From NCBI GenBank assembly GCA_913043205.1, contig CAJWLF010000011.1, positions 1-64,000 on the forward strand: a stretch of DNA of 64,000 bases, in the 5' to 3' direction. A model generated the notes under the pieces. It was given only the letters and a program-made list of their open reading frames with translations. It did not search any database and had not been told where the DNA came from. Source of the DNA: an uncultured Chloroflexota bacterium. Its GTDB lineage: Bacteria; Chloroflexota; UBA11872; VXNJ01. Shown here piece after piece: positions 2,207 to 42,184 of the stretch. Position numbers and translations under genes: made by a program. The first letter of the stretch is position 1; each line of letters begins with the position of its first letter.

Positions 2207-3655
2207 TCACCCCAAATTGGGGTCGGACGAGGTGGATTTCTCGGGTCCCACGGCTGGCGGAGGACTATGATGCCCGGGGTCCCCAATCTCGATTATGCGT
2301 CTTTTATGTTGACTATCTAGTATCCGTAAATGTATTTCGTCGGCGTCAAAATCCTGAAGCAGTATTTCCAGCAATTCTTTTAGGGTGTCTTGATGGTTCG
2401 TCGTTGAAGACAGATCGGTTCTTTCCTCGGGATCCTCTTTTAAATTGAACAACTCCGGTGCTTCATTATGATGGAATATAAGTTTCCAATCCCCTTTTCG
2501 CAACATGCGGCTGCCAGCATTAGCCCCTACGGCAAAGTATTCACTGATGGCATGGGCGTTGGGGTCATCCTCTGCACCGCCCAGCAACGGTGTAAGATCT
2601 TTACCATCAAGCCCGTCGGGAATCGATGCATTGCCGAGCTCCAGTAATGTTCTGCTCAGATCAACCAATGAAACGGGCTCAGCAATGCGTCTTCCGTTAC
2701 CGGAAACGCCCGGGCCTTTCACGATGAACGGTATCGCACAGGAATCCTCATAAAAGGACTGTTTGTGCCACATGCCATGTTCTCCGTTCGCTTCGCCGTG
2801 ATCTGATGTGTATATGACGATTGTGTCATCCGTTAGACCGTTGTCGCCTAGAGCATCGAGTAAAACCCCTAGCTGATCGTCGGTATATGAGCACAGACCA
2901 TAGTAGGCCGCACGACAACGCCTGATCTGATCATCCGTTAGGTCTACAGTATCAAACCATTCAGCCATCCGCTGATTTCTTGGATGCAGTGTGTCGTGGT
3001 GAGCGGGATTAATTGGCATATCTGCGTGCTTTGGGTAATACCTGTCCCAGTATGGCTGGCGGCAGATAAATGGATTGTGGGGAGTGATAAAACCAACCAC
3101 TAAAGCCCAAGGCTGGGATTTTCGTTCTGGTTCGCCTAAATAGGCAGCTGCTCGCATAGCCGCTTCCTCGTCGTAGTCAGAGTAGTAATGGTCACCAGGG
3201 CCGGCCTCTTCAAAAAATTCTCTGCCCGCACCTCTTCGAGATGGATCTGGATCGGCCCAGTATGCATTCAATTTGGAACTGTGAGTACCGTGAACATCGG
3301 CCAATATGCGTTTTGTGAACCCATGGTGCTGATCCTGACCCTGAAAATGCATTTTTCCACAAAGTGTGGTCTCATAGCCGGCTGCATTTAACATGTGTGC
3401 CCAGGTCGGTTCTTCACTACTGAGTGGCGTTCCGTTATCCCAAACACCGATTTTACTTACGTGTTTGCCTGTCATGAATGAGGCTCGTGCGGGTACGCAT
3501 ATAGGTGAATTTGTGTACGCACAATCGAAAGTTACTCCTTCATCACTTAAGCGTTGCATGTTTGGTGTTTGTATAAACTGATGACCGTATGGGCTACTCC
3601 ATCTACGGCTATGCTGATCACTAATCACGATCAAAATATTCGGTTGTTTAGTCAT
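2207..3655 (-). CDS. Sulfatase, choline-sulfatase-like (tandem copy 1)
   Basis: A 482-residue type I sulfatase that hydrolyses sulfate esters. The metal-site start PNILIVISDQH (Asp13) and the formylglycine signature CVPAR (Cys53, converted to formylglycine by a separate enzyme) are intact. YTSDHGEANGEHG in the middle supplies further metal and active-site residues. The SPICVPARASFMTGKH block and following 'VWDN' resemble choline-sulfatase relatives more than classical arylsulfatases. No signal peptide is seen, so it may be cytoplasmic. It is the most divergent of three head-to-tail paralogues (Ala instead of Ser in CxPSR, shorter middle region). The true substrate is unknown. Confidence 0.88.
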   Translation of the reverse strand: MTKQPNILIVISDQHSRRWSSPYGHQFIQTPNMQRLSDEGVTFDCAYTNSPICVPARASFMTGKHVSKIGVWDNGTPLSSEEPTWAHMLNAAGYETTLCGKMHFQGQDQHHGFTKRILADVHGTHSSKLNAYWADPDPSRRGAGREFFEEAGPGDHYYSDYDEEAAMRAAAYLGEPERKSQPWALVVGFITPHNPFICRQPYWDRYYPKHADMPINPAHHDTLHPRNQRMAEWFDTVDLTDDQIRRCRAAYYGLCSYTDDQLGVLLDALGDNGLTDDTIVIYTSDHGEANGEHGMWHKQSFYEDSCAIPFIVKGPGVSGNGRRIAEPVSLVDLSRTLLELGNASIPDGLDGKDLTPLLGGAEDDPNAHAISEYFAVGANAGSRMLRKGDWKLIFHHNEAPELFNLKEDPEERTDLSSTTNHQDTLKELLEILLQDFDADEIHLRILDSQHKRRIIEIGDPGHHSPPPAVGPEKSTSSDPNLG

Positions 3656-3737
3656 TCAGTATTCCTTTGGGGGTATATAAATAGCGTGAGCTCGTGTGGC
3701 TGTGTCCATATTTCCTTATTCTTGTATTGCAAAAGAT

Positions 3738-5156
3738 CTAATTATCCCATCTGGGACTGTATGGCTGGCCTTGCATAGATTGATTGATTAGCATTCGATC
3801 TCGTTGTTGTGCGACTATTTGCTGCCTTAATTGAACTGGGTGCCAGTCAGCAAGAATGCGTTCGGTCATCTCTTTAACTATCGGTGTGTAGCGTACGTCG
3901 GCGGAAACATTATGTAATTCATTTGGATCATCTTCAATATTAAATAGTTCGCACGGTTCACCATGGTAATAATTCAATTTCCACTTTCCTTCGCGTAACA
4001 TTCTTCCTGGCGTTGTGGTTCCGTGTGCATAGTATTCGCATAGAGCTGTGCCGTCCGTCTGTTTAACTTGTCCTGTCAACAAAGGCAACAAGCTAACCCC
4101 ATCTGTGTCATTAGTATTTGCAGACGCTACGTCCAGCATAGTGTGGACTAAATCCACAAGTGAGGTCACTTGGTTATACCTGCTTCCGTCCTTTATGACG
4201 TTTGGCCATCTAATAATGAATGGGACTTTAGACGACGGGTCATAGAACGTGCACTTGTACCATAGACCGTGTTCACCCAGGCTCTCTCCGTGATCTGAGG
4301 TATACACTACTATAGTATTGTCAGCTAAGTTGTTGGCGTCTAAGGCATCCAGAATCTCACCTATCTTGTCATCACAAAATTCAGTCAGGCCGTAATAGGC
4401 AGCCCTACATATTCTGATTTGTTCTTCGGTTAGATCTTCTGCGCCGAAATGCATTCGTAGTCGCTGTGTTTGAGGGTGGCATAAGGATAGATCCTCTGCG
4501 GGTATGGAGGGTAAATCAGCGTGCTCAGGATAATAGTTTGTGTAGTATTCCTCTCGTACTCGAAATGGAAAATGTGGTGCGAATAGCCCTACGCATAGAG
4601 CCCATGGACGAGAATGCCTGTCAGCTTCGGTAAGATAGTTGAGAGTATGCTTGGTAACTGCATCATCATATCGCTGATCAACGGTATCTCCGGCTCCTGT
4701 ATCTTTTGTTAGTCTATCGTTTACCGCAAACGGGGTAGCAAGTTTACCTTTCTCCCAATCGGGCAGATTGGTGTGATACCCCCCTTCACCGTGGATGTCA
4801 GGCATGATCCGACGGCTGAATCCATGCATCTGGTCTTTCCCTATGAAGTGCATTTTGCCACAAAGAGTTGTCTCATAGCCGGCGTTGTTAAGTCGATGAG
4901 CCCATGTGGGTTCATCGGATCTTAAAGGAACAGTGTTGTCCCAAACACCAGTTTTATGCAGATGCCTGCCGGACATGAACGAGGCGCGAGACGGAACGCA
5001 CAACGGGGAATTGCAATATGTATTTTCAAACACAGCGCCCTCATTGGCTAATCGCTGTTGACTTGGTGTTTTTACGAATTTGTGACCGTAAGGAGTACTG
5101 ATTCTGGGGTCATGTTCATCGGACATAATTATTAAAATATTCGGTTTGTCAGTCAT
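3738..5156 (-). CDS. Sulfatase, choline-sulfatase-like (tandem copy 2)
   Basis: A 472-residue sulfatase starting DKPNILIIMSDEHDP with formylglycine motif CVPSR at Cys53 and YTSDHGESLGEHGLWYK near residue 300. All metal and catalytic landmarks are present. It shares long blocks with copy 3 (for example SPLCVPSRASFMSGRHLH, GYETTLCGKMHFIGKDQMHG), so the two derive from a recent duplication relative to copy 1. It is separated from copy 1 by 81 bases and from copy 3 by 70 bases on the same strand, which suggests one transcript. No formylglycine-generating enzyme is encoded in the window. No export signal is visible. Confidence 0.9.
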   Translation of the reverse strand: MTDKPNILIIMSDEHDPRISTPYGHKFVKTPSQQRLANEGAVFENTYCNSPLCVPSRASFMSGRHLHKTGVWDNTVPLRSDEPTWAHRLNNAGYETTLCGKMHFIGKDQMHGFSRRIMPDIHGEGGYHTNLPDWEKGKLATPFAVNDRLTKDTGAGDTVDQRYDDAVTKHTLNYLTEADRHSRPWALCVGLFAPHFPFRVREEYYTNYYPEHADLPSIPAEDLSLCHPQTQRLRMHFGAEDLTEEQIRICRAAYYGLTEFCDDKIGEILDALDANNLADNTIVVYTSDHGESLGEHGLWYKCTFYDPSSKVPFIIRWPNVIKDGSRYNQVTSLVDLVHTMLDVASANTNDTDGVSLLPLLTGQVKQTDGTALCEYYAHGTTTPGRMLREGKWKLNYYHGEPCELFNIEDDPNELHNVSADVRYTPIVKEMTERILADWHPVQLRQQIVAQQRDRMLINQSMQGQPYSPRWDN

Positions 5157-5226
5157 TGCAAGTCCTTAGTGATCTACTGAGACGCTGATGTTCTTATGGG
5201 ACCAAACAAATGTGCCGTACCTCGGA

Positions 5227-6672
5227 TTAGCCATAATTACCATTTCGCCAAGGTGGCCCCCAATTGTTGCCGGAAGACACATTGGCGTTTGCAATCAGTA
5301 ATCGTTGTTGCTGACTTTGGATAATTTCATGATGGATAGAATCCCCATCCCATCCATCAAGTGCGATTTCTGTGAGTTCAGATAGAACGGTTGCGCATTT
5401 GGGATCACTTGATAGGTCTGTAAGTTCATTAGGATCATTGTCCAAATCGAACAATTCAGGAGATTGACCATGGTAGTGATTTAGTTTGTAGTTCCCTCGT
5501 CGCACCATGCGTCCTGGAGTGCTAATGCCATGCGCATAATATTCACATATCGCCATTCCTTCAGATTCGCCCGTCTCTCCTGACAGTAATGGGAGCAGGC
5601 TCTCGCCGTCCGTGAATTCGGTATCGGCGCCCGTAGCGTCTAGTATTGTCTGTACAACGTCTAATAAGGAAGTGACTTGATCGTATTTCTGGCCAGGCTT
5701 GGTAATTCCGGGCCAGCGAATGATTAGTGGTACTCGGGACGATCTTTCATAAAATGTACATTTGTACCACATGCCATGATCACCGAGCATTTCCCCGTGA
5801 TCTGCTGTATATATAACAACAGTATTGTCTGCCAATCCATAGGCCTCTAATGCATCTAGGATGTCTCCGATTTTGTCGTCACAAAAGTCCACAAGACCGT
5901 AGTAGGCCGCTCGAGCTTTTCTAATCTGTTCATCTGGAATCCCTATGACTTCGAAGTGATGCCTCAGGCGACGGTTTTCTTCGTGCAATGATTCCAAATG
6001 GCCCTCTGGGATCTCCGGTAAGTCAGCGTGATCTTTTGCATATTTGTGGTAATACTCGGGCCGGGCTTTAAACGGGAAATGCGGAGTGAATATCGATGAT
6101 ACTAAAGCCCATGGCTTTTCTTTACGGGCTGGTTCGGCCAGATATTGGATCGAGCGCATAACAACCTCGTCATCGTATTGTTGATGTTCATGGTCCCCGG
6201 GACCGGGATCTTCCGCAAGTCGTCGTCGTAATCCGCCCTCATCACCTCTCGTTTTTGCAAATCCTCCATCGGTCCAATTTGGGAGATTCGTACCGATACC
6301 TCCCATGCCATGTATGTCGTCCATTATGCGGCGTGAAAACCCATGCATTTGGTCTGGGCCGACAAAATGCATTTTTCCACACAATGCTGTTTCATAACCC
6401 TCCCTGTTAAGCCTATGGGCCCATGTTGGCTCATCACTAGACAGTGGGACGCTGTTATCCCAGACTCCGATTCGATGTAAGTGTTTGCCTGTCATAAAAG
6501 AGGCCCGTGACGGCACGCATATCGGTGAATTGCAATACGCATTATTGAACGTAGCTCCACTGTCAGCCAGCCTTTGCATATTGGATGTGTCAACAAAATT
6601 GTGTCCATATGGTGTACTGATTTGAGGGTCGTGTTCATCACTCATTATTATCAAAAAGTTTGGCTTGTCCAC
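5227..6672 (-). CDS. Sulfatase, choline-sulfatase-like (tandem copy 3)
   Basis: A 481-residue sulfatase and the first gene of the three-sulfatase run. It starts at GTG. The N-terminal metal site is FLIIMSDEHDP, the formylglycine motif is CVPSR at Cys52, and YTADHGEMLGDHGMWYK lies near residue 305. Compared with copy 2 it has an insertion of about 12 residues near residue 150 (GGFAKTRGDEGG region). Its promoter should lie in the 136-base divergent gap shared with the short-chain dehydrogenase on the other strand. The neighbouring sugar-type importer and three sulfatases together suggest use of sulfated organic compounds, but the substrate is inferred, not seen. Confidence 0.9.
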   Translation of the reverse strand: MDKPNFLIIMSDEHDPQISTPYGHNFVDTSNMQRLADSGATFNNAYCNSPICVPSRASFMTGKHLHRIGVWDNSVPLSSDEPTWAHRLNREGYETALCGKMHFVGPDQMHGFSRRIMDDIHGMGGIGTNLPNWTDGGFAKTRGDEGGLRRRLAEDPGPGDHEHQQYDDEVVMRSIQYLAEPARKEKPWALVSSIFTPHFPFKARPEYYHKYAKDHADLPEIPEGHLESLHEENRRLRHHFEVIGIPDEQIRKARAAYYGLVDFCDDKIGDILDALEAYGLADNTVVIYTADHGEMLGDHGMWYKCTFYERSSRVPLIIRWPGITKPGQKYDQVTSLLDVVQTILDATGADTEFTDGESLLPLLSGETGESEGMAICEYYAHGISTPGRMVRRGNYKLNHYHGQSPELFDLDNDPNELTDLSSDPKCATVLSELTEIALDGWDGDSIHHEIIQSQQQRLLIANANVSSGNNWGPPWRNGNYG

Positions 6673-24559: not shown

Positions 24560-25399
24560 TTATTCAATCAAATTTGAGCCATGATCGATTTTATGTACTG
24601 ATATTTTGTCTCCAGTTGACAGCCCAGTAACAGCGGAGCAATTTGAATTAGGGGCAGCAAATTCTAGGTATCCAGCACTACCAATAACACCAACAACTTC
24701 AACATCATGCTGATAACTACTAACCACCGGTATATTTGCACACCAGCCAGCGGTTTCCGTGGCATTGCTTCGAACTTGAAGAATTTGAGTTGCCTCATCT
24801 AACCAATCCTGTGGGATATTGGTAATTAAGTTACCGAATGAATCCTCGTAGATGATCGTCGCATCAATAATATTGTTGGATTGGATTACTGCTTCTTCGA
24901 AAGCAATCTCATGAATTTGAGATGTTTTTTCACCCAGAAGATTTGCTTCTACCCCATTTGCGTAGTGGGCGGCTACTGGAGCAAATACATCACGCCCGTG
25001 AAATGTATTGCTAATTGTATTCATCCAATAATCACGTTGAGTCAAATGATAAAAAGTACACTCAACATTACTGTTTTGTGTAACTCGTGAAAACACTCCG
25101 TTGTCTGGCCCAATATACGTTTTCGGCCCGGATTTAATCAATATGGGCCTTCTGGAGGACCCTACACCTGGATCAATGACTGCAACGACTACGCATACGG
25201 CCGGCAAGTATGGAAGTACAAACTCCAAAGTATAGGCAGCCTGGGTAATATCTCCTCGCTTGATTCCATGAGAAATGTCTAGTATTCGGGTTTCAGGACA
25301 ATTGTTAATCAGAACAGATTTCATAATAGAAACATAAGGGTCGCTGTACCCAAAGTCGGTAAGCAACGCGATGGTTTTCGGTTGAGATAATTGGGGCAT
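24560..25399 (-). CDS. SAM hydroxide adenosyltransferase (DUF62 family)
   Basis: A 279-residue member of the family that includes fluorinase, chlorinase and SAM hydroxide adenosyltransferase. It carries LLTDFGYSDPYVSIMK at the N-terminus, DPGVGSSRRP (Asp and Arg of the Asp-Arg-His triad), GPDNGVFS and FHGRDVFAPVAAH (His of the triad). The intact triad points to the water-using enzyme that makes adenosine and methionine from SAM, not to a halogenase. It follows the P1 peptidase gene by 2 bases. Its physiological purpose in bacteria is unsettled. Confidence 0.88.
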   Translation of the reverse strand: MPQLSQPKTIALLTDFGYSDPYVSIMKSVLINNCPETRILDISHGIKRGDITQAAYTLEFVLPYLPAVCVVVAVIDPGVGSSRRPILIKSGPKTYIGPDNGVFSRVTQNSNVECTFYHLTQRDYWMNTISNTFHGRDVFAPVAAHYANGVEANLLGEKTSQIHEIAFEEAVIQSNNIIDATIIYEDSFGNLITNIPQDWLDEATQILQVRSNATETAGWCANIPVVSSYQHDVEVVGVIGSAGYLEFAAPNSNCSAVTGLSTGDKISVHKIDHGSNLIE

Positions 25400-27135: not shown

Positions 27136-28227
27136 ACGGCACTAAAACGAACCTCTTTGTACAAACAGCACCTATCTCTCGGTGCCCGCATGGTCGATTT
27201 TGCGGGCTGGGAGATGCCTGTCCAATATGAAGGATTGATCCCTGAACATGAGGCAGTTCGCAACGCTGTTGGAATGTTCGACGTTTCCCACATGGGTGAA
27301 TTTATCATCGACGGCCATGATAGCACTGAGTTCCTTCAATACACTCTGACAAATGATGTGAGCCGCCTAAAGGTCGGTCGGTCTCAATATTCACTTTTAT
27401 GCAATGAGGATGGTGGAGTCATAGATGATTGTATGCTCTACCGATTAGAAGCCTGTAAGTTTTTATTGGTGGTAAATGCTGCTAATTCTGACAAGGATTA
27501 CCCATGGATCCAAAGCAAAGCACGACACTATGACGTTCATGTCAGTGACCAGACTGACTCGTACGCACTCCTTGCTATACAAGGTCCCAAAGCAACCAGC
27601 TCATTGCAAAAGCTTAGCAAAGACGACTTGAAGGAATTAAGACGAACGGAAATCAGGGCCATCGAGGTCTGTGGACATCAATGTCTTGTAGGGCGTACCG
27701 GCTATACGGGTGAAGACGGATATGAAGTATTTTGTATGCCTAGCATTGCCGATGAAATTTGGGCCTCGGCTATTGATCAAAGCGTAACGCCTTGTGGATT
27801 GGGTTCCCGAAACACCCTACGATTGGAGGCTGGCATGGCTCTTCACGGGCACGAAATCAGCGAAACTATAACTCCTGTTGAAGCCGGCTTGAATGGTGTA
27901 GTCGCATTTACCAAGGAAGAATTTGTCGGGAAGCGGGCTATAGCTAACATATTGAACTCGGGCACTCCTAATCGACTAATGGGATTAGTTATGATGGATC
28001 GTGCCGTGCCAAGAGATGGCTATGTTGTATATACAAGTAATGGAGAAGGTCTAGTTACAAGTGGCACTTTTTCACCGACATTGGAACGTGGGATCGCTAT
28101 GGCTTATCTACCTAGTCAGGTTCAGGTAGGCGACAATGTCTCCGTTGTGATCCGAGATAAACATTGGGCTGCCGAAATAGTAGAATTACCTTTTTACAGC
28201 AACGTAACTAAATGGCGAGCTAAATGA
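27136..28227 (+). CDS. gcvT: Glycine cleavage system T protein (aminomethyltransferase)
   Basis: Transfers the methylene group from aminomethyl-lipoyl GcvH to tetrahydrofolate, releasing ammonia. The N-terminal GARMVDFAGWEMPVQY, FDVSHMGEF and the LVGRTGYTGEDGYEVF folate region are intact. Family similarity starts upstream of the first standard start codon (TTG 27157): the in-frame codons ACG GCA CTA AAA CGA ACC TCT encode the usual 'ALKRTSL'. AAGGA at 27124-27128 sits 7 bases before ACG 27136, so I place the start there. No ATG, GTG or TTG exists between the upstream in-frame stop (27091) and 27157. It leads gcvT-H-PA-PB. Confidence 0.93.
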   Translation, partial: TALKRTSLYKQHLSLGARMVDFAGWEMPVQYEGLIPEHEAVRNAVGMFDVSHMGEFIIDGHDSTEFLQYTLTNDVSRLKVGRSQYSLLCNEDGGVIDDCMLYRLEACKFLLVVNAANSDKDYPWIQSKARHYDVHVSDQTDSYALLAIQGPKATSSLQKLSKDDLKELRRTEIRAIEVCGHQCLVGRTGYTGEDGYEVFCMPSIADEIWASAIDQSVTPCGLGSRNTLRLEAGMALHGHEISETITPVEAGLNGVVAFTKEEFVGKRAIANILNSGTPNRLMGLVMMDRAVPRDGYVVYTSNGEGLVTSGTFSPTLERGIAMAYLPSQVQVGDNVSVVIRDKHWAAEIVELPFYSNVTKWRAK

Positions 28228-28240
28228 TTGGAGTAAATCA

Positions 28241-28639
28241 TTGAATGACCAAATTCTTCCATCAGATTTGAAATATACAAGAGAGCACGAGTGGATCAAG
28301 ATAGAGGGTAGGGAGGGTTTGATAGGGATAACCGATTATGCCCAAAGCCAACTCGGTGACGTGGTTTATGTGGAGCTACCGACGCCTGGCACAACTTTTG
28401 CACAGGCGGATACTTTTGGAGTCGTAGAATCTGTGAAGGCAGTCTCTGATCTCTATATGCCCATTGGAGGGCAAGTTGTCGCTAAAAACGATACATTACT
28501 TGACAATCCCGAAAAGATTAATGAGAACCCCTATGGTAACGGTTGGATCATAAAGATCGAAGTCGATACCGAGTACAACACCGATGACCTTTTAGATGCA
28601 GAACAATATGAAAAGCTAGTTAATGACCTACATCCCTAA
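28241..28639 (+). CDS. gcvH: Glycine cleavage system H protein
   Basis: A 132-residue lipoyl carrier that shuttles the aminomethyl group among the P, T and L proteins. The lipoylation site is ESVKAVSDLY. The N-terminal KYTREHEWIKIEG and GITDYAQSQLGDVVYVELP blocks are textbook. It begins at TTG after GGAG, 13 bases downstream of gcvT. Its last 17 bases overlap the beginning of gcvPA in another frame. Confidence 0.97.
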   Translation: MNDQILPSDLKYTREHEWIKIEGREGLIGITDYAQSQLGDVVYVELPTPGTTFAQADTFGVVESVKAVSDLYMPIGGQVVAKNDTLLDNPEKINENPYGNGWIIKIEVDTEYNTDDLLDAEQYEKLVNDLHP

Positions 28640-29975
28640 CACCGATAATGATCGTCGGATAATGCTTGAGGCTATCGGCATAAAGTCCATAGATCAATTG
28701 TTTTCTGACATTCCAGAATCCCACAGAGACCCCGATCTTAAACTACAGGAAGCCCTATCAGAGATGGATGTGTTGGCGCATCTAAAAGCCATAGCTAATG
28801 AGAACGAGTCGCTGGAACAACTTCTGTGTTTTGCGGGGGGTGGATGGTATGACCATTATGTGCCTGCTTTCGTTGATCAATTAATGTTAAGGAGTGAGTT
28901 CTATACCTCATACACTCCTTATCAACCTGAAATCAGTCAAGGGACTCTACAAGCGATTTACGAATTTCAGAGCATGATTTGCGACTTGACGCAACTCGAT
29001 GTTGCAAATGCTTCAATGTATGACGGTGGATCAGCACTCGCCGAAGCAATCACTGTGGCAGTAAATACAACGGGACGTACCAGAGTTGTAATCGCCGAGA
29101 CTGTCGATCCTGCCTACGCTTCTGTTGCACGAACCTACGCCAGCCCCCTTGACATAACTATTTGTAGCGCCAAGAATTTTGACGTGGGCGAAAACGGGGT
29201 CATGATCGAGTGCCAGGAGCGTCTTCGCTCAGAGATTAATGATGAGACAGCATGTGTCGTTCTTCAACGTCCGAACTTTTTCGGTTGGCTCGAAGATTAT
29301 GCTACTGTCATTCAATGCGCAAAAAGATGCGGCGCCGTTGTGATTGTCGTTGGTGATCCTGTTTCGCTCGGGCTAATTAAACCACCAGGAGAATTGGGTG
29401 CCGATATAGCTGTAGGTGAATTGAGGCACTTAGTTGGTCCACCAGCTTTCGGCGGTCCAGGTGCGGGATATTTTGCAACTACCTCAAAATTTCTTCGATC
29501 AGTTCCTGGCCGAATAGCTGGAAGAACAAAGGATAACGCTGGACGCAATGGGTACGTCCTTACTCTAAGAACTAGAGAACAGGACATTCGTAGGGAGCGA
29601 GCTTCCTCCAACATATGTACGAACGAGGCTTTAGTTGCGCTTGGAGCAACAATGCATATGGCCGCCCTCGGAAAGACCGGGTTGCAACATCTGGCCCGAT
29701 TATGTCTGGAAAATGCTCATCTTGCGGTGGATAAACTGACAGGCAATAGCTTTAGACTCGGAACAAACAGGCCCTTCGTTAGGGAGTTTCCGCTTAAGTG
29801 TCCAGTACCGGCCCATGAAATTGTAGATAGTTTGGCTTCTGATGGAATATTGCCTGGAATAGATCTAGGTCAATTTTGGCCGGAACTTTCGCATCATCTG
29901 CTTGTCGCCTTCACCGAAAAGACCAATGATAAGGCCGTCGATCGGTTGATAAATGCGCTCGGGGCTATGGAATGA
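28623..29975 (+). CDS. gcvPA: Glycine decarboxylase subunit 1 (P protein alpha)
   Basis: A 450-residue N-terminal half of the pyridoxal-phosphate glycine decarboxylase, in the two-gene form. It opens with TYIPNTDNDRRIMLEAIGI, and the FYTSYTPYQPEISQGTLQAIYEFQ block and GGSALAEA loop match the family. It lacks the PLP lysine, which lies on subunit 2. The start overlaps gcvH by 17 bases and the stop overlaps gcvPB by 4 bases (ATGA). Start ATG is supported by homology to the first residue. Confidence 0.96.
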   Translation: MTYIPNTDNDRRIMLEAIGIKSIDQLFSDIPESHRDPDLKLQEALSEMDVLAHLKAIANENESLEQLLCFAGGGWYDHYVPAFVDQLMLRSEFYTSYTPYQPEISQGTLQAIYEFQSMICDLTQLDVANASMYDGGSALAEAITVAVNTTGRTRVVIAETVDPAYASVARTYASPLDITICSAKNFDVGENGVMIECQERLRSEINDETACVVLQRPNFFGWLEDYATVIQCAKRCGAVVIVVGDPVSLGLIKPPGELGADIAVGELRHLVGPPAFGGPGAGYFATTSKFLRSVPGRIAGRTKDNAGRNGYVLTLRTREQDIRRERASSNICTNEALVALGATMHMAALGKTGLQHLARLCLENAHLAVDKLTGNSFRLGTNRPFVREFPLKCPVPAHEIVDSLASDGILPGIDLGQFWPELSHHLLVAFTEKTNDKAVDRLINALGAME

Positions 29976-31423
29976 AAGAAGAGCCTGTAATCTATGAATT
30001 GTCATCTCCGGGTCGAGTCGGCGTACAACTTCCTCCTCTACGAAAACCTCAGAAAGGGATTGACGAATATCTTCCGACCGAAGAGATACGTGACGAATTA
30101 CCTCTTCCAGAGGTATCCCAGATAGACGTCGTTAGACATTTTGTTAGGCTTTCGCAGCTCAATTTCTCTATCGATACCGATATGTACCCGTTAGGCTCCT
30201 GCACGATGAAGTACAACCCCAAGATCAATGAGGTAACCGGACGACTTTCAGGACTCAGTGCAATCCATCCATACCAACCTGACGGACAGATTCAAGGAGT
30301 GCTTAAACTTCTGTGGAATCTGCAGGGCCTTCTTTCGGAGATTGCTGGCTTTCCAGGAGTTACCTTACAGCCTTCTGCCGGTGCCCAAGGGGAATTTACT
30401 GGTCTGATGCTTATTCGCGCGATGTTGACTGAAAAAGGGTCTCCTCGAAGCAAAGTTTTAATCCCTGACTCTGCACACGGGACCAATCCCGCTACCGCAA
30501 CTATGTGCGGCTATAAATCAATTGGGATTCCATCCGGCCCGGATGGAGAGATCGACATCGAAGCTATAGAACGGCTTCTTGATGATGATGTGGCTGCAAT
30601 AATGATGACGGTCCCCAACACCCTGGGCGTGTTTGAGACCCGCATCGAAAAGGTATGTGATATGGCTCATACTGTAGGAGCTCAGGTTTATTGTGATGGG
30701 GCAAACATGAACGCTATGGTAGGTCGGGTCAGACCTGGAGATCTTGGCATCGACGTTATGCATCTCAATCTTCACAAAACTTTTAGTACTCCGCATGGCG
30801 GTGGAGGACCTGGTGCGGGGGCATTGTGTGTCAAAAAGCACCTGATTCCATATTTGCCGGGACCCACGGTAGCTATCGACAAAGACGATCAATATTTTCG
30901 GCAACATAGTCTTAGCAAAAGCATTGGAAAAGTACACAGTAATATGGGTAATTTTGGCAATCTAATAAGAGCCTATACATATATATTGAGCAATGGGAAA
31001 TCTGGCTTAAAATCCATCGCTGATAATGCAGTGTTAAACGCTAATTACGTTCGGGTACGACTTCGTGATCGTTATGATTTACCTTTTGACAGGACATGCA
31101 TGCATGAAGTCGTGTTTTCGGGCACACGACAAAAAGCTCTTGGAGCTAGTACTTTAGACATCGCCAAACGTCTAATTGACTATGGATTTCATCCTCCCAC
31201 CATCTATTTTCCCTTGATCGTGCCGGAGGCCATTATGATCGAGCCAACGGAGACTGAATCCCGGGAAACTATAGACAGATTTATTGAAGCACTAGTAGCA
31301 ATAGCTGACGAGGCAGAATTTGATTCATCTATTCTGAGAAGCGCCCCGGTCTCCGCCCCACTTGGACGACTTGATGAAGCTACGGCAGCCAGACAGCCAG
31401 ATTTGAGATATTCACCCCGATAA
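29972..31423 (+). CDS. gcvPB: Glycine decarboxylase subunit 2 (P protein beta)
   Basis: A 483-residue catalytic half of the P protein. The PLP lysine is in HLNLHKTFSTPHGGGGPGAG. The MYPLGSCTMKYNPK segment and DSAHGTNPATATMCGY block are conserved. With GcvPA, GcvH and GcvT it converts glycine to CO2, ammonia and methylene-tetrahydrofolate; the L protein (lipoamide dehydrogenase) is not in the window. It is the end of the gcv operon and converges on a beta-propeller gene with a hairpin between them. Confidence 0.97.
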   Translation: MKEEPVIYELSSPGRVGVQLPPLRKPQKGIDEYLPTEEIRDELPLPEVSQIDVVRHFVRLSQLNFSIDTDMYPLGSCTMKYNPKINEVTGRLSGLSAIHPYQPDGQIQGVLKLLWNLQGLLSEIAGFPGVTLQPSAGAQGEFTGLMLIRAMLTEKGSPRSKVLIPDSAHGTNPATATMCGYKSIGIPSGPDGEIDIEAIERLLDDDVAAIMMTVPNTLGVFETRIEKVCDMAHTVGAQVYCDGANMNAMVGRVRPGDLGIDVMHLNLHKTFSTPHGGGGPGAGALCVKKHLIPYLPGPTVAIDKDDQYFRQHSLSKSIGKVHSNMGNFGNLIRAYTYILSNGKSGLKSIADNAVLNANYVRVRLRDRYDLPFDRTCMHEVVFSGTRQKALGASTLDIAKRLIDYGFHPPTIYFPLIVPEAIMIEPTETESRETIDRFIEALVAIADEAEFDSSILRSAPVSAPLGRLDEATAARQPDLRYSPR

Positions 31424-35194: not shown

Positions 35195-36298
35195 ATGACG
35201 GAGCCAACACATTTTGCCAGTAGTCATATAGAATTTGCATCAGTACTGGCAGCTGCTAGATACGGAATTAAGTGTATGGAGGGAGACGTGCCCAACCGAT
35301 TTCCGTCAATTGTGTCGGCTATCGAACAATTAAAGTTGTCACTTAGGGCTAAATCGCCACGCACCCGGTCAACTTATTCGACCGGACTGAATAGCTTCCT
35401 CCAATATCTATCAGATGCTGGGATAAACCCAGACACCGATAATACTTCCGAATTATTGGACAACACTCTTGAAGAGTACTATTTATGGCTGGTTGATCGC
35501 TACGGAAGGCATTCACTTAGCACCGTAAATACCTATATGGCACCAGCAAGAGCATTTGCTAGATTTCTGGCTCGAAACGACTTGTGTCCCAACTTGTCAT
35601 TAGTTAAGGCGCTAGAGAGATTAAAGGCAGTTGTTGTAAGTTTGCAATACCGTACTCCCAGGGTTGATTCAAACCTAGCCTTAATTGTAGATTTCGCTTT
35701 GAGTATGACCGTTCCACCTAGAACGAAAAAGAACTACGAGCATCGACTTAGACTCCTGAGGGATCAGGGAATCCTACATCTGCTATACAGCACTGGGCTA
35801 AGGCGAACTGAGGTGACTGCTTTAGATAGACGTGATGTGGAACACCGAACCGACGGTCAAACGATAATTCAGGGAAAGGGTGGGAAAGAGCGTGTGGTAT
35901 TTTTTGACAAAGAATGCCTATATCAAGTCCGACAATATATCGATGAACGTGAGGACACGTTCCACCCACTATTCATACGACACAAGGGAACTCCTAGCGA
36001 CCCCGGGAGAGGAGGTGAATCGGAACGGTTATCCCCTCAAAGCATTTGGATGATCGTAAAAAAGTACGCAAAAGCGGCAGGGATCGATGCTTCAACACAT
36101 GACTTCAGGCACAACAAAGCTTCGACATTACTAAATCGGGGAGCCAATTTGTCGGAAGTGCAGGACTTATTGGGACACGCATCTCCTGCAACTACCAAGC
36201 TTATATATGCTCGCTACGAGACAGCCAAGCTACGAGAGGCTTTTGACCGATACAGTATGCCTCTCAGCGAAGCAGTTACCGATGAGTCCGACAAATAA
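35195..36298 (+). CDS. Tyrosine recombinase, XerC/XerD-like
   Basis: A 367-residue phage-integrase-fold recombinase. The catalytic set is complete: Arg in STGLRRTEVTALD, Lys in GKGGKERVV, HDFRH, LLGHAS and the nucleophile in LIYARYE. The N-terminal SAM-like DNA-binding domain reads TYSTGLNSFLQYL and 'STVNTYMAPARAFARFL'. It is longer than E. coli XerC/D (about 300) because of N-terminal and mid-protein additions. It has no neighbouring phage genes, attachment repeats or tRNA, so a chromosomal resolvase role is more likely than an integrase role. Confidence 0.85.
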   Translation: MTEPTHFASSHIEFASVLAAARYGIKCMEGDVPNRFPSIVSAIEQLKLSLRAKSPRTRSTYSTGLNSFLQYLSDAGINPDTDNTSELLDNTLEEYYLWLVDRYGRHSLSTVNTYMAPARAFARFLARNDLCPNLSLVKALERLKAVVVSLQYRTPRVDSNLALIVDFALSMTVPPRTKKNYEHRLRLLRDQGILHLLYSTGLRRTEVTALDRRDVEHRTDGQTIIQGKGGKERVVFFDKECLYQVRQYIDEREDTFHPLFIRHKGTPSDPGRGGESERLSPQSIWMIVKKYAKAAGIDASTHDFRHNKASTLLNRGANLSEVQDLLGHASPATTKLIYARYETAKLREAFDRYSMPLSEAVTDESDK

Positions 36299-39649: not shown

Positions 39650-40583
39650 AAGTGGTTTCACCTTGTATATGAAGCATTGCACGACGAATCATTTCATGAG
39701 CCATAATTTCTGATTTTCTGACCCAAACCACGCCACCTTGATTACGAAACCACGTACTCTGGCGTTTAGCGTATCCATTAGTTGCGACTTTAATCTTTTG
39801 AACACAATCCCTCAACGATATTTGCCCAACTAGGTAATCACACACCTGGGAATACCCTATAGACCTCTCTAAAACCGAATTATTCCGATACCCAAGTGCC
39901 ATAAGGCACCGAACTTCATCCACCAGTCCATCTCTAAACATTTCGTCAGTCCGCCGATCAATATTTCTTCGTCTTTCCTCTGGCGACAACTGTATTCCCA
40001 GGGTGATAGCGTCTGTTGGAGCACGTTGTCGGGAAGGACGGGCGATCCGCATCCCAGAAACCTCGATGATTTCTAAGGCCCTAATGACTCGATGCGGATT
40101 ATTCGAGTCAATTGTTTGGGCGCGTTCCGGATCAAGCTCAGCAAGCCTAGAAAACAAACTCTCTAGACCATTTGAACGCAATTCTCCTAGTAGACGATCA
40201 CGAACGCAAGGGTCACTTGGCACTGAAGCAGTGAGTAATCCTTGGGTTAGACAGGAAACATATTCACCTGAGCCACCAACAAGAATCGGAGTTTTCGATC
40301 TAGACAATATATCTGTGACACATTCAAGTGCCCGCAAGTAGTAATCATGGACCGAGAAAGACTGATCGGGGCGCAATATATCCAACATATGATGACGAAC
40401 AATGGATCTGTGCAAATTAGAAACTTTCGCAGTCCCGATGTCCATGCCAGAGTATATCTGGCGCGAATCAGCAGAAATGATCTCGCCGTTCAGGATCCCA
40501 GCCATCTTCAGTGCTATTTCAGACTTTCCACTTGCGGTCGGACCCACCAGCGCCACTATTTTGGGTAAAGTATCTATGTCCAA
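39636..40583 (-). CDS. miaA: tRNA dimethylallyltransferase
   Basis: A 315-residue enzyme that adds a dimethylallyl group to A37 of tRNAs reading UNN codons. The P-loop is GPTASGKS, then ISADSRQIYSGMDIGTAKV, the substrate-site RHHMLDILRPDQSFSV and the GGSGEYVSCL loop. Length is normal. It starts at TTG. It is the first gene of miaA-dapF-dapL-hflX and diverges from fchA. Its prenyl donor comes from the MEP pathway, of which dxr and ispG are in this window. Confidence 0.95.
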   Translation of the reverse strand: MDIDTLPKIVALVGPTASGKSEIALKMAGILNGEIISADSRQIYSGMDIGTAKVSNLHRSIVRHHMLDILRPDQSFSVHDYYLRALECVTDILSRSKTPILVGGSGEYVSCLTQGLLTASVPSDPCVRDRLLGELRSNGLESLFSRLAELDPERAQTIDSNNPHRVIRALEIIEVSGMRIARPSRQRAPTDAITLGIQLSPEERRRNIDRRTDEMFRDGLVDEVRCLMALGYRNNSVLERSIGYSQVCDYLVGQISLRDCVQKIKVATNGYAKRQSTWFRNQGGVVWVRKSEIMAHEMIRRAMLHIQGETTYDTD

Positions 40584-40699: not shown

Positions 40700-41335
40700 T
40701 TGGAAACTCTTGTAGACCCACTTGCTGAACACACCATCTCTCAGTTCGCTGCTAGACTATCGTCTAGCAATTCCACGCCGGGCGGCGGCGCGGTCGCTGC
40801 TTTGACCCTAGCTGTAGCGGCATCAATGGTACAGATGGTAGCCAACATCTCTATTCAGACTGCCAGTCAAAATGAACGTGAATTGTATTCGGCTATCATA
40901 AAGAACGCCAGTGACGCCCAATCAAAATCAATGGATCTAGCCGATGAAGACTGCATTGCTTATGAGTCCCTACTCGCTGCATTCAAGTTGCCCAAATTGG
41001 ACGCGAATGACAAACGAATTCGCAAAAACGCTATTCAAACTGCTGCAAAAGAGGCAGCGTGCGTTCCTGTAACGGTAGCACGGTTAGCCAAGGACATTAT
41101 CCAGTTATGCGACGACTTGAAGCCTATATCGAACACAAACCTTAACTCAGATCGCATAGGGGCAGTGTCGCTTGCCTGCTCAGTTATATATATTTGCATT
41201 ATGAATGTGAGGGCAAATATTCCATTTATCAGTGACCAAATTATGCGCGAACGTCTTACCTCAACTGTCGACGTGTTCATCGCGTATTTAGCCGTTCACC
41301 AACCCTCTGTATCGTCTCTTAAGCTGGATCGATAA
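40700..41335 (+). CDS. fchA: Cyclodeaminase/cyclohydrolase family protein (FchA-like)
   Basis: About 211 residues of the all-helical family that includes methenyl-tetrahydrofolate cyclohydrolase FchA and the cyclodeaminase half of FTCD. The diagnostic glycine-rich turn is NSTPGGGAVAALTLAVAASM, and the LADEDCIAYESLLAAFKLPK and SDRIGAVSLACS segments follow family order. The frame is open far upstream, but homology begins near TTG 40700. FolD begins directly after its stop. This FolD lacks cyclohydrolase residues, so FchA probably makes 10-formyl-tetrahydrofolate here. Confidence 0.82.
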   Translation: METLVDPLAEHTISQFAARLSSSNSTPGGGAVAALTLAVAASMVQMVANISIQTASQNERELYSAIIKNASDAQSKSMDLADEDCIAYESLLAAFKLPKLDANDKRIRKNAIQTAAKEAACVPVTVARLAKDIIQLCDDLKPISNTNLNSDRIGAVSLACSVIYICIMNVRANIPFISDQIMRERLTSTVDVFIAYLAVHQPSVSSLKLDR

Positions 41336-42184
41336 ATGAGTTCTGCAAAACGTCTATCCGGAACTTCATTGGCCAATACAATAGCAGCTGAATTGAAGGC
41401 TACCATATTTTCATTGTCGCAATCATTAGGCAAAGTGAAACTAGTCACATTACAACTTGGCAACGAACCTGCGTCATCTAGCTATAGGCGTTCATTATCA
41501 AAAACATGTTCTCAAATTGGACTTGAACACAAATCTATTAGACTTCCGTGTGATGTCAATATTCACCAGATATCCTCAACCATCAATACCTTAAATAACG
41601 ATACTCTAGTAGGCGGGATAATCCTCCTTACACCCCTCCCATCACACGTCAATAATTCTTTGGTAGCCGACATGATATCGCCCGCAAAGGACGTTGAATG
41701 CGTTACGTCGGCTCGGCGCGCAGCACTATATTCGGGTGACACTACATTGGCACCAGCAACAGCCGCCGCTGCGGATTGCTTGTTAAGAGCATACGATGTT
41801 CCGATATCAGGAGCTACGGTTGCAATAATCGGCCGGAGTCATACTGTTGGGCGCCCATTGGGCTTAATTCTTATTGATCGAGACGCAACTGTAACCATTT
41901 GTCACTCCAAGACAGCAAATCTGGCTGAGATAACCTGTACGTGTGACATTGTTATATCTGCCGCCGGCGTGCCAGACCTGGTATCCTTTCGCCACATCAA
42001 ACCGGGCGCTATTGTACTTGACGTTGGAACAAATTATGTCGGAGATAAATTGACTGGCGATGTAGATTATGAGGGGGTCGCTCAAATAGCCGCAGCTATT
42101 TCACCGGTTCCTGGTGGAATAGGGCCACTAACAAATCTTATGCTAGTGCGAAACCTAGTCACTTTACTTGAATCAAATAACTAG
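41336..42184 (+). CDS. folD: FolD-family methylene-THF dehydrogenase, cyclohydrolase site lost
   Basis: A 282-residue FolD. The NADP-binding part IIGRSHTVGRPLG and the C-terminal SPVPGGIGPLTNLMLVRN are typical. The folate active site is altered. Gap-free alignment to E. coli FolD from memory keeps Tyr50 (SSSYRRSLSK) but shows Leu54 for catalytic Lys54, Leu98 for Gln98 (GGIILLTPLP) and Glu121 for Asp121 (KDVECV). I read the codons directly: TTA at position 54 and CTT at 98. It should lack cyclohydrolase activity and may be a dehydrogenase only. It starts immediately after fchA and overlaps the convergent mutL end by 4 bases. Confidence 0.88.
   Translation: MSSAKRLSGTSLANTIAAELKATIFSLSQSLGKVKLVTLQLGNEPASSSYRRSLSKTCSQIGLEHKSIRLPCDVNIHQISSTINTLNNDTLVGGIILLTPLPSHVNNSLVADMISPAKDVECVTSARRAALYSGDTTLAPATAAAADCLLRAYDVPISGATVAIIGRSHTVGRPLGLILIDRDATVTICHSKTANLAEITCTCDIVISAAGVPDLVSFRHIKPGAIVLDVGTNYVGDKLTGDVDYEGVAQIAAAISPVPGGIGPLTNLMLVRNLVTLLESNN

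Follow-up and report, generated by a model that had tools for sequence, protein, structure and literature searches.

A FolD without its cyclohydrolase lysine, encoded next to a stand-alone FchA, points to a probable two-protein route to 10-formyl-THF in Chloroflexota

The analyzed window, a 64,000-nucleotide stretch from an uncultured Chloroflexota bacterium, carries two abutting forward-strand genes of one-carbon metabolism. The upstream gene, fchA (40700–41335), encodes a putative methenyl-THF cyclohydrolase of the FTCD_C family, and folD (41336–42184) encodes a 282-residue predicted methylene-THF dehydrogenase (PF00763 and PF02882) that lacks the cyclohydrolase lysine. The first-pass annotation had described a gene of the FchA/cyclodeaminase family preceding folD with no gap, and both points are confirmed: the fchA product matches Pfam FTCD_C with E = 1.1e-42, and the fchA TAA codon (41333–41335) is followed directly by the folD ATG at 41336. 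The longest fchA reading frame starts from a GTG at 40511 that falls within miaA, and TTG 40700, giving a protein of ~211 residues, is the more plausible start. The pair is flanked by a divergent miaA and by a convergent mutL recognized by eye. Scanning the locus for promoters and terminators returned a chance-level result, and it is from gene order only that we infer co-transcription of fchA and folD. Elsewhere, the window contains three tandem sulfatase genes (2207–6672), a SAM hydroxide adenosyltransferase gene (24560–25399; PF01887/PF20257), and a tyrosine recombinase gene of the phage integrase family (35195–36298) located between molybdopterin oxidoreductase and HflX-type GTPase genes.

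The window FolD is 33.6% identical to the annotated folD product of E. coli MG1655 over 277 aligned sites, and its residue numbering matches that of E. coli FolD as far as position 234. Family membership is clear from the Pfam models THF_DHG_CYH (PF00763; E = 2.9e-25, 89.2 bits against a cut-off of 32.8) and THF_DHG_CYH_C (PF02882; E = 2.2e-51, 173.8 bits against a cut-off of 27) and from an intact FolD fold in the predicted structure (pLDDT 96.9; TM 0.96 to the bifunctional FolD 3p2o), and the best-scoring NCBIfam models are all named 'bifunctional'. Alignment to the E. coli protein bears out the first-pass reading of Leu54, Leu98, and Glu121 beside a retained Tyr50: E. coli Y50/K54/Q98/D121/G122/R234 correspond to Y50/L54/L98/E121/C122/Y234. 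On the forward strand these codons lie at 41483–41485 (Tyr50), 41495–41497 (Leu54), 41627–41629 (Leu98), 41696–41701 (Glu121-Cys122), and 42035–42037 (Tyr234), and both Lys54 and Gln98, which together define a bifunctional FolD, are replaced by leucine. Gly166-Arg167-Ser168 (41831–41839) and Ser191 (41906) retain the common FolD pattern, which we take to bind NADP(+) as in human MTHFD1. The draft state of the genome (1.87 Mb in 32 contigs, 93.6% complete) and the divergence of the protein leave an assembly or alignment artefact or a decaying folD pseudogene as formal explanations, and these are scarcely credible given an intact reading frame that follows E. coli numbering up to residue 234, the kept NADP-binding residues, and the presence of both genes in the same order in four relatives of the same family (G001–G004).

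The altered positions include catalytic residues. Lys54 serves as general acid/base in the cyclohydrolase reaction (PMC3338484, PMC5688156), Gln98 positions Lys54, and the pterin ring is held by Asp121, which in apo FolD also forms a salt bridge to Arg234 (PMC3338484). In E. coli FolD, the K54N mutation leaves cyclohydrolase activity undetectable with ~19% dehydrogenase activity, and Q98H leaves ~1% cyclohydrolase and 8% dehydrogenase activity (PMC5688156). By analogy with these two mutants the window FolD would have lost cyclohydrolase activity, and the residue changes combined with the mutant data indicate that it should be a dehydrogenase only. Sah and Varshney, writing in 2015, reportedly found E. 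coli K54S to be likewise a dehydrogenase-only enzyme and D121A to be poor in both activities. Glu121 is the sole change in the window FolD whose effect the mutants do not let us predict, and it could also weaken the dehydrogenase.

The protein encoded by fchA has the features of a stand-alone FchA. It retains all ten invariant columns (L20, P27, G28–G30, M46, D84, P98, R108, and D151) defined on 36 Chloroflexota FTCD_C sequences that include the window protein itself, and with miaA and folD as neighbors it shows neither fusion nor adjacency to a formiminotransferase, in contrast to loci L267–L269. Searches with phmmer matched 1o5h (E = 6.5e-19) and 7vg4 (E = 6.7e-18), and the predicted structure (pLDDT 93) has as its best Protein Data Bank match Methylobacterium FchA (7vg4, TM 0.84), a small margin above the Thermotoga cyclodeaminase 1o5h (TM 0.82). 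Since the window protein, scored alone, reaches 112.4 bits with the NCBIfam FchA model NF045657 (E = 2e-32), below the curated cut-off of 275 bits, its assignment rests on FTCD_C family membership, fold, conserved residues, and pairing with folD. The same low score, the fact that FchA and formimino-THF cyclodeaminase form one family (FTCD_C), and the spontaneous hydrolysis of 5,10-methenyl-THF (PMC5688156) would suit an alternative in which FolD is still bifunctional, with another residue or a pocket water replacing Lys54, and FchA is redundant or a cyclodeaminase. We regard this as very improbable: neither Leu54 nor Leu98 is capable of an acid/base role, position 54 is I, L, or V in 85 of the 90 Lys54-less FolDs surveyed below, FTCD_C proteins linked to histidine breakdown go with Lys54 FolDs (L147 excepted), and the FchA model lies slightly, if by that small margin, nearer to FchA than to the cyclodeaminase.

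Very probably, the window FolD is monofunctional, acting as an NADP-linked 5,10-methylene-THF dehydrogenase, and FchA, encoded next to it, hydrolyzes 5,10-methenyl-THF to 10-formyl-THF for PurN and Fmt. FolD would oxidize 5,10-methylene-THF to 5,10-methenyl-THF with NADP, FchA would convert this product to 10-formyl-THF, and PurN and Fmt would consume it. Genome content is consistent with this scheme. A second canonical folD was sought and none was found, the window FolD being the one PF02882 match in the 93.6%-complete genome, and the FolD without Lys54 is accompanied by a single, stand-alone FTCD_C gene. No Fhs was found in the same assembly, although the gene could sit in the missing 6%. 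A search for an MtdA-type dehydrogenase (PF09176) was uninformative, matching nothing in the window genome or in the control genomes. Because folD and FTCD_C each occur once and no Fhs was found, FolD plus FchA is the only 10-formyl-THF route found, and two 10-formyl-THF-dependent formyltransferases (208 and 316 residues, lengths that fit PurN and Fmt) are present. The lack of a detected Fhs also makes it probable that flux runs in the oxidative direction, supplying formyl groups rather than drawing on formate. As with this direction, we infer the retention of dehydrogenase activity and the use of NADP. The source of methylene-THF is presumably serine or the gcv genes (27157–31423), which comprise gcvT (27157–28227), a gcvH-like gene assigned by eye only (28241–28639), gcvPA (28623–29975), and gcvPB (29972–31423). 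The first-pass annotation proposed that the split activity would close the one-carbon route from the gcv operon in the window; with 9 kb between the gcv genes and the pair, such a link is metabolic rather than operonic. Fhs is present in several relatives (G001, G002, G005, and G006), unlike in the window genome, and in two of these an operon-like fchA-folD-fhs row encodes the whole route from formate to methylene-THF (G002:C12:65103–68251 and G006:C1:2450392–2453536).

The residues around position 121 raise a further alternative, that D121E, G122C, and R234Y mark drift toward another substrate or loss of useful dehydrogenase activity in a FolD with no housekeeping role. In its favor, E. coli D121A is reportedly crippled, and the branch leading to the window FolD in the FolD tree is long (1.39 changes per site). 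Asp121 also positions the pterin (PMC3338484). Against drift, position 121 still carries a carboxylate, neither the Rossmann nor the NADP motifs are disrupted, the model retains its close match to FolD, D121E recurs in other FchA-bearing lineages, and the protein is the sole FolD of a genome that encodes enzymes of the PurN and Fmt types and yielded no other 10-formyl-THF source. We therefore consider drift very improbable, and the changed specificity raised in the first-pass annotation found no support beyond the D121E/G122C change.

Across the phylum, the absence of Lys54 follows the presence of a stand-alone FchA. We classed 92 Chloroflexota FolD loci by the FTCD_C status of their genomes and found Lys54 in 0 of 45 FolDs from genomes with stand-alone FchA (26 families), in 33 of 35 from FTCD_C-negative genomes, and in 12 of 12 from genomes assigned to a fused or distant FTCD_C class. 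These 12 comprise five fusions, three formiminotransferase-adjacent cases (family f17), three weak or split matches, and G245. At 41 of 47 Lys54-less loci in this sample, fchA precedes folD in the same orientation. Named FolD loci led to a further comparison of 50 genomes, in which FTCD_C accompanies all nine Lys54-less FolDs (eight stand-alone, one fusion) and is present in four of 41 genomes with a Lys54 FolD, three of the four being fusions. Stand-alone FchA accompanies 62 of 66 Lys54-less and 0 of 68 Lys54 sequences in a dereplicated set of 134 FolDs with known FchA status, from which G245 was left out; in the phylum sample G245 is counted as 'distant' and is not among the 45. The Lys54-less set also includes two Firmicutes, a Lachnospiraceae (L144) and a Peptococcaceae (L084) member, each with an adjacent fchA. 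The split of the two-step activity over two proteins, as the first-pass annotation proposed, is supported by residues, genome content, and this pairing in Chloroflexota; it is not peculiar to the window genome and is typical of the sampled Chloroflexota families with stand-alone FchA. In the literature library searched, we found no paper stating the residue-54 rule or its distribution in Chloroflexota.

Exceptions are few. Lineages that share the substitutions and have no fchA, which the first-pass annotation had held would count against it, are rare. Four Lys54-less FolDs lack a stand-alone FchA: that of G040 (77% complete), L147 (an FTCD fusion), and extra copies in G184 and G135, where the other sequenced copy carries Lys54 (G184) or a second FolD-family match is present (G135). 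These extra copies (L171 in G184 and L166 in G135) belong to Dehalococcoidia-like lineages, occur without any FchA, and represent a second, separate loss. G245 is a real exception in the opposite direction, with a full-length stand-alone FchA (216 residues, E = 1.5e-63; L261:1471–2118) whose gene adjoins a class-III aminotransferase gene, together with a Lys54 FolD (L200). We rejected co-loss of folD and fchA in five genomes of family f2 (G013, G017, G020, G021, and G022): an assembly break over fchA-folD-fhs is simpler, because fhs lies directly downstream of folD in G002 and G006 and only fhs fragments were found in G020 and G022, with the G020 fragment lying right where a contig begins. Separately, L270 (G153:C12) encodes a weakly FTCD_C-like protein beside a gene of the trimethylamine methyltransferase (MTTB) family, with a possible corrinoid or C1 function.

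Few independent evolutionary events underlie the association. The first FolD tree needs two changes of Lys54 state, and removal of 15 columns (sites 98 and 121 together with those that discriminate best) raises this to four, so many independent Lys54 losses are rejected. Only one independent contrast falls on supported branches, and FolD and FchA distances are correlated (Mantel r = 0.62, 0 of 999 permutations). The pattern is mostly that of one ancient FolD subfamily that was passed on or exchanged along with fchA, followed by a later loss in Dehalococcoidia-like paralogues; because it reflects mainly one old split in the FolD tree, the association does not amount statistically to independent evidence for numerous losses.

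A survey of 207 FolDs (117 with and 90 without Lys54) defines the signature of this subfamily. Tyr50, Gln98, and Asp121 are all present in 117 of 117 Lys54 FolDs, whereas Lys54-less FolDs vary at position 98, and Arg234 is found in 101 of 117 Lys54 versus one of 90 Lys54-less sequences. Beyond residue 54, the strongest differences fall at positions 268 (I/V to N/T), 234, 123, 65, 170, and 141. The D121E change is the less expected part: it arose four or five times on the trees and is confined to the Lys54-less subfamily (8 of 90 versus 0 of 117). Outside Chloroflexota, an Omnitrophota FolD (L114) with Q54 and E121 has an adjacent fchA. Judging from these sequences, loss of Arg234 plausibly, if not provably, released Asp121. 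A broader scenario, which we consider rather unlikely, is that takeover by FchA freed the FolD pocket for rebuilding, first breaking the Asp121–Arg234 pair and then allowing Asp121 to become Glu, with altered folate binding, possible direct handover of methenyl-THF to FchA, and natural insensitivity to FolD inhibitors such as carolacton.

The division of labor between FolD and FchA is reportedly already known from clostridia and acetogens, and it is widespread in Chloroflexota. Wohlfarth is said to have described a monofunctional methylene-THF dehydrogenase from Peptostreptococcus productus in 1991, and Aluri reportedly treated the FolD/FchA/Fhs system of Clostridium perfringens in 2016. The window locus resembles these systems in using two proteins for two steps with fchA beside folD, and differs in that no Fhs was found in its genome and its FolD carries Q98L, D121E, and G122C. 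With bifunctional FolD (E. coli 1b0a/5o28; Campylobacter 3p2o) the window protein shares the fold, Tyr50, the NADP-binding motifs, and single-copy occurrence, but it has leucine in place of Lys54 and Gln98 and Glu in place of Asp121. Yeast Mtd1, a monofunctional NAD-dependent methylene-THF dehydrogenase, is likewise a FolD-family dehydrogenase without cyclohydrolase, but unlike the window FolD it is eukaryotic, NAD-specific, and without an FchA partner. The partner dehydrogenase of Methylobacterium FchA is MtdA. The window FchA has the fold of the Methylobacterium extorquens protein, its PGGG motif, and its conserved Asp, but is 26% identical to it and is partnered by FolD, not MtdA. The FchA–MtdA pair is named in PMC12844395, and yeast Mtd1 is cited in PMC11064299.

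Together, these data yield a sequence rule in which FolD residue 54 (Lys or not) and a stand-alone fchA predict one- versus two-protein synthesis of 10-formyl-THF. Because the best-scoring NCBIfam models all bear that name, automatic annotation as 'bifunctional' is probably wrong for such folD genes across much of Chloroflexota. Carolacton is a FolD inhibitor whose binding needs Lys54, and Lys54-less FolDs are predicted to escape it. As a natural dehydrogenase-only series, these proteins would offer a means of separating the two activities of the FolD family.
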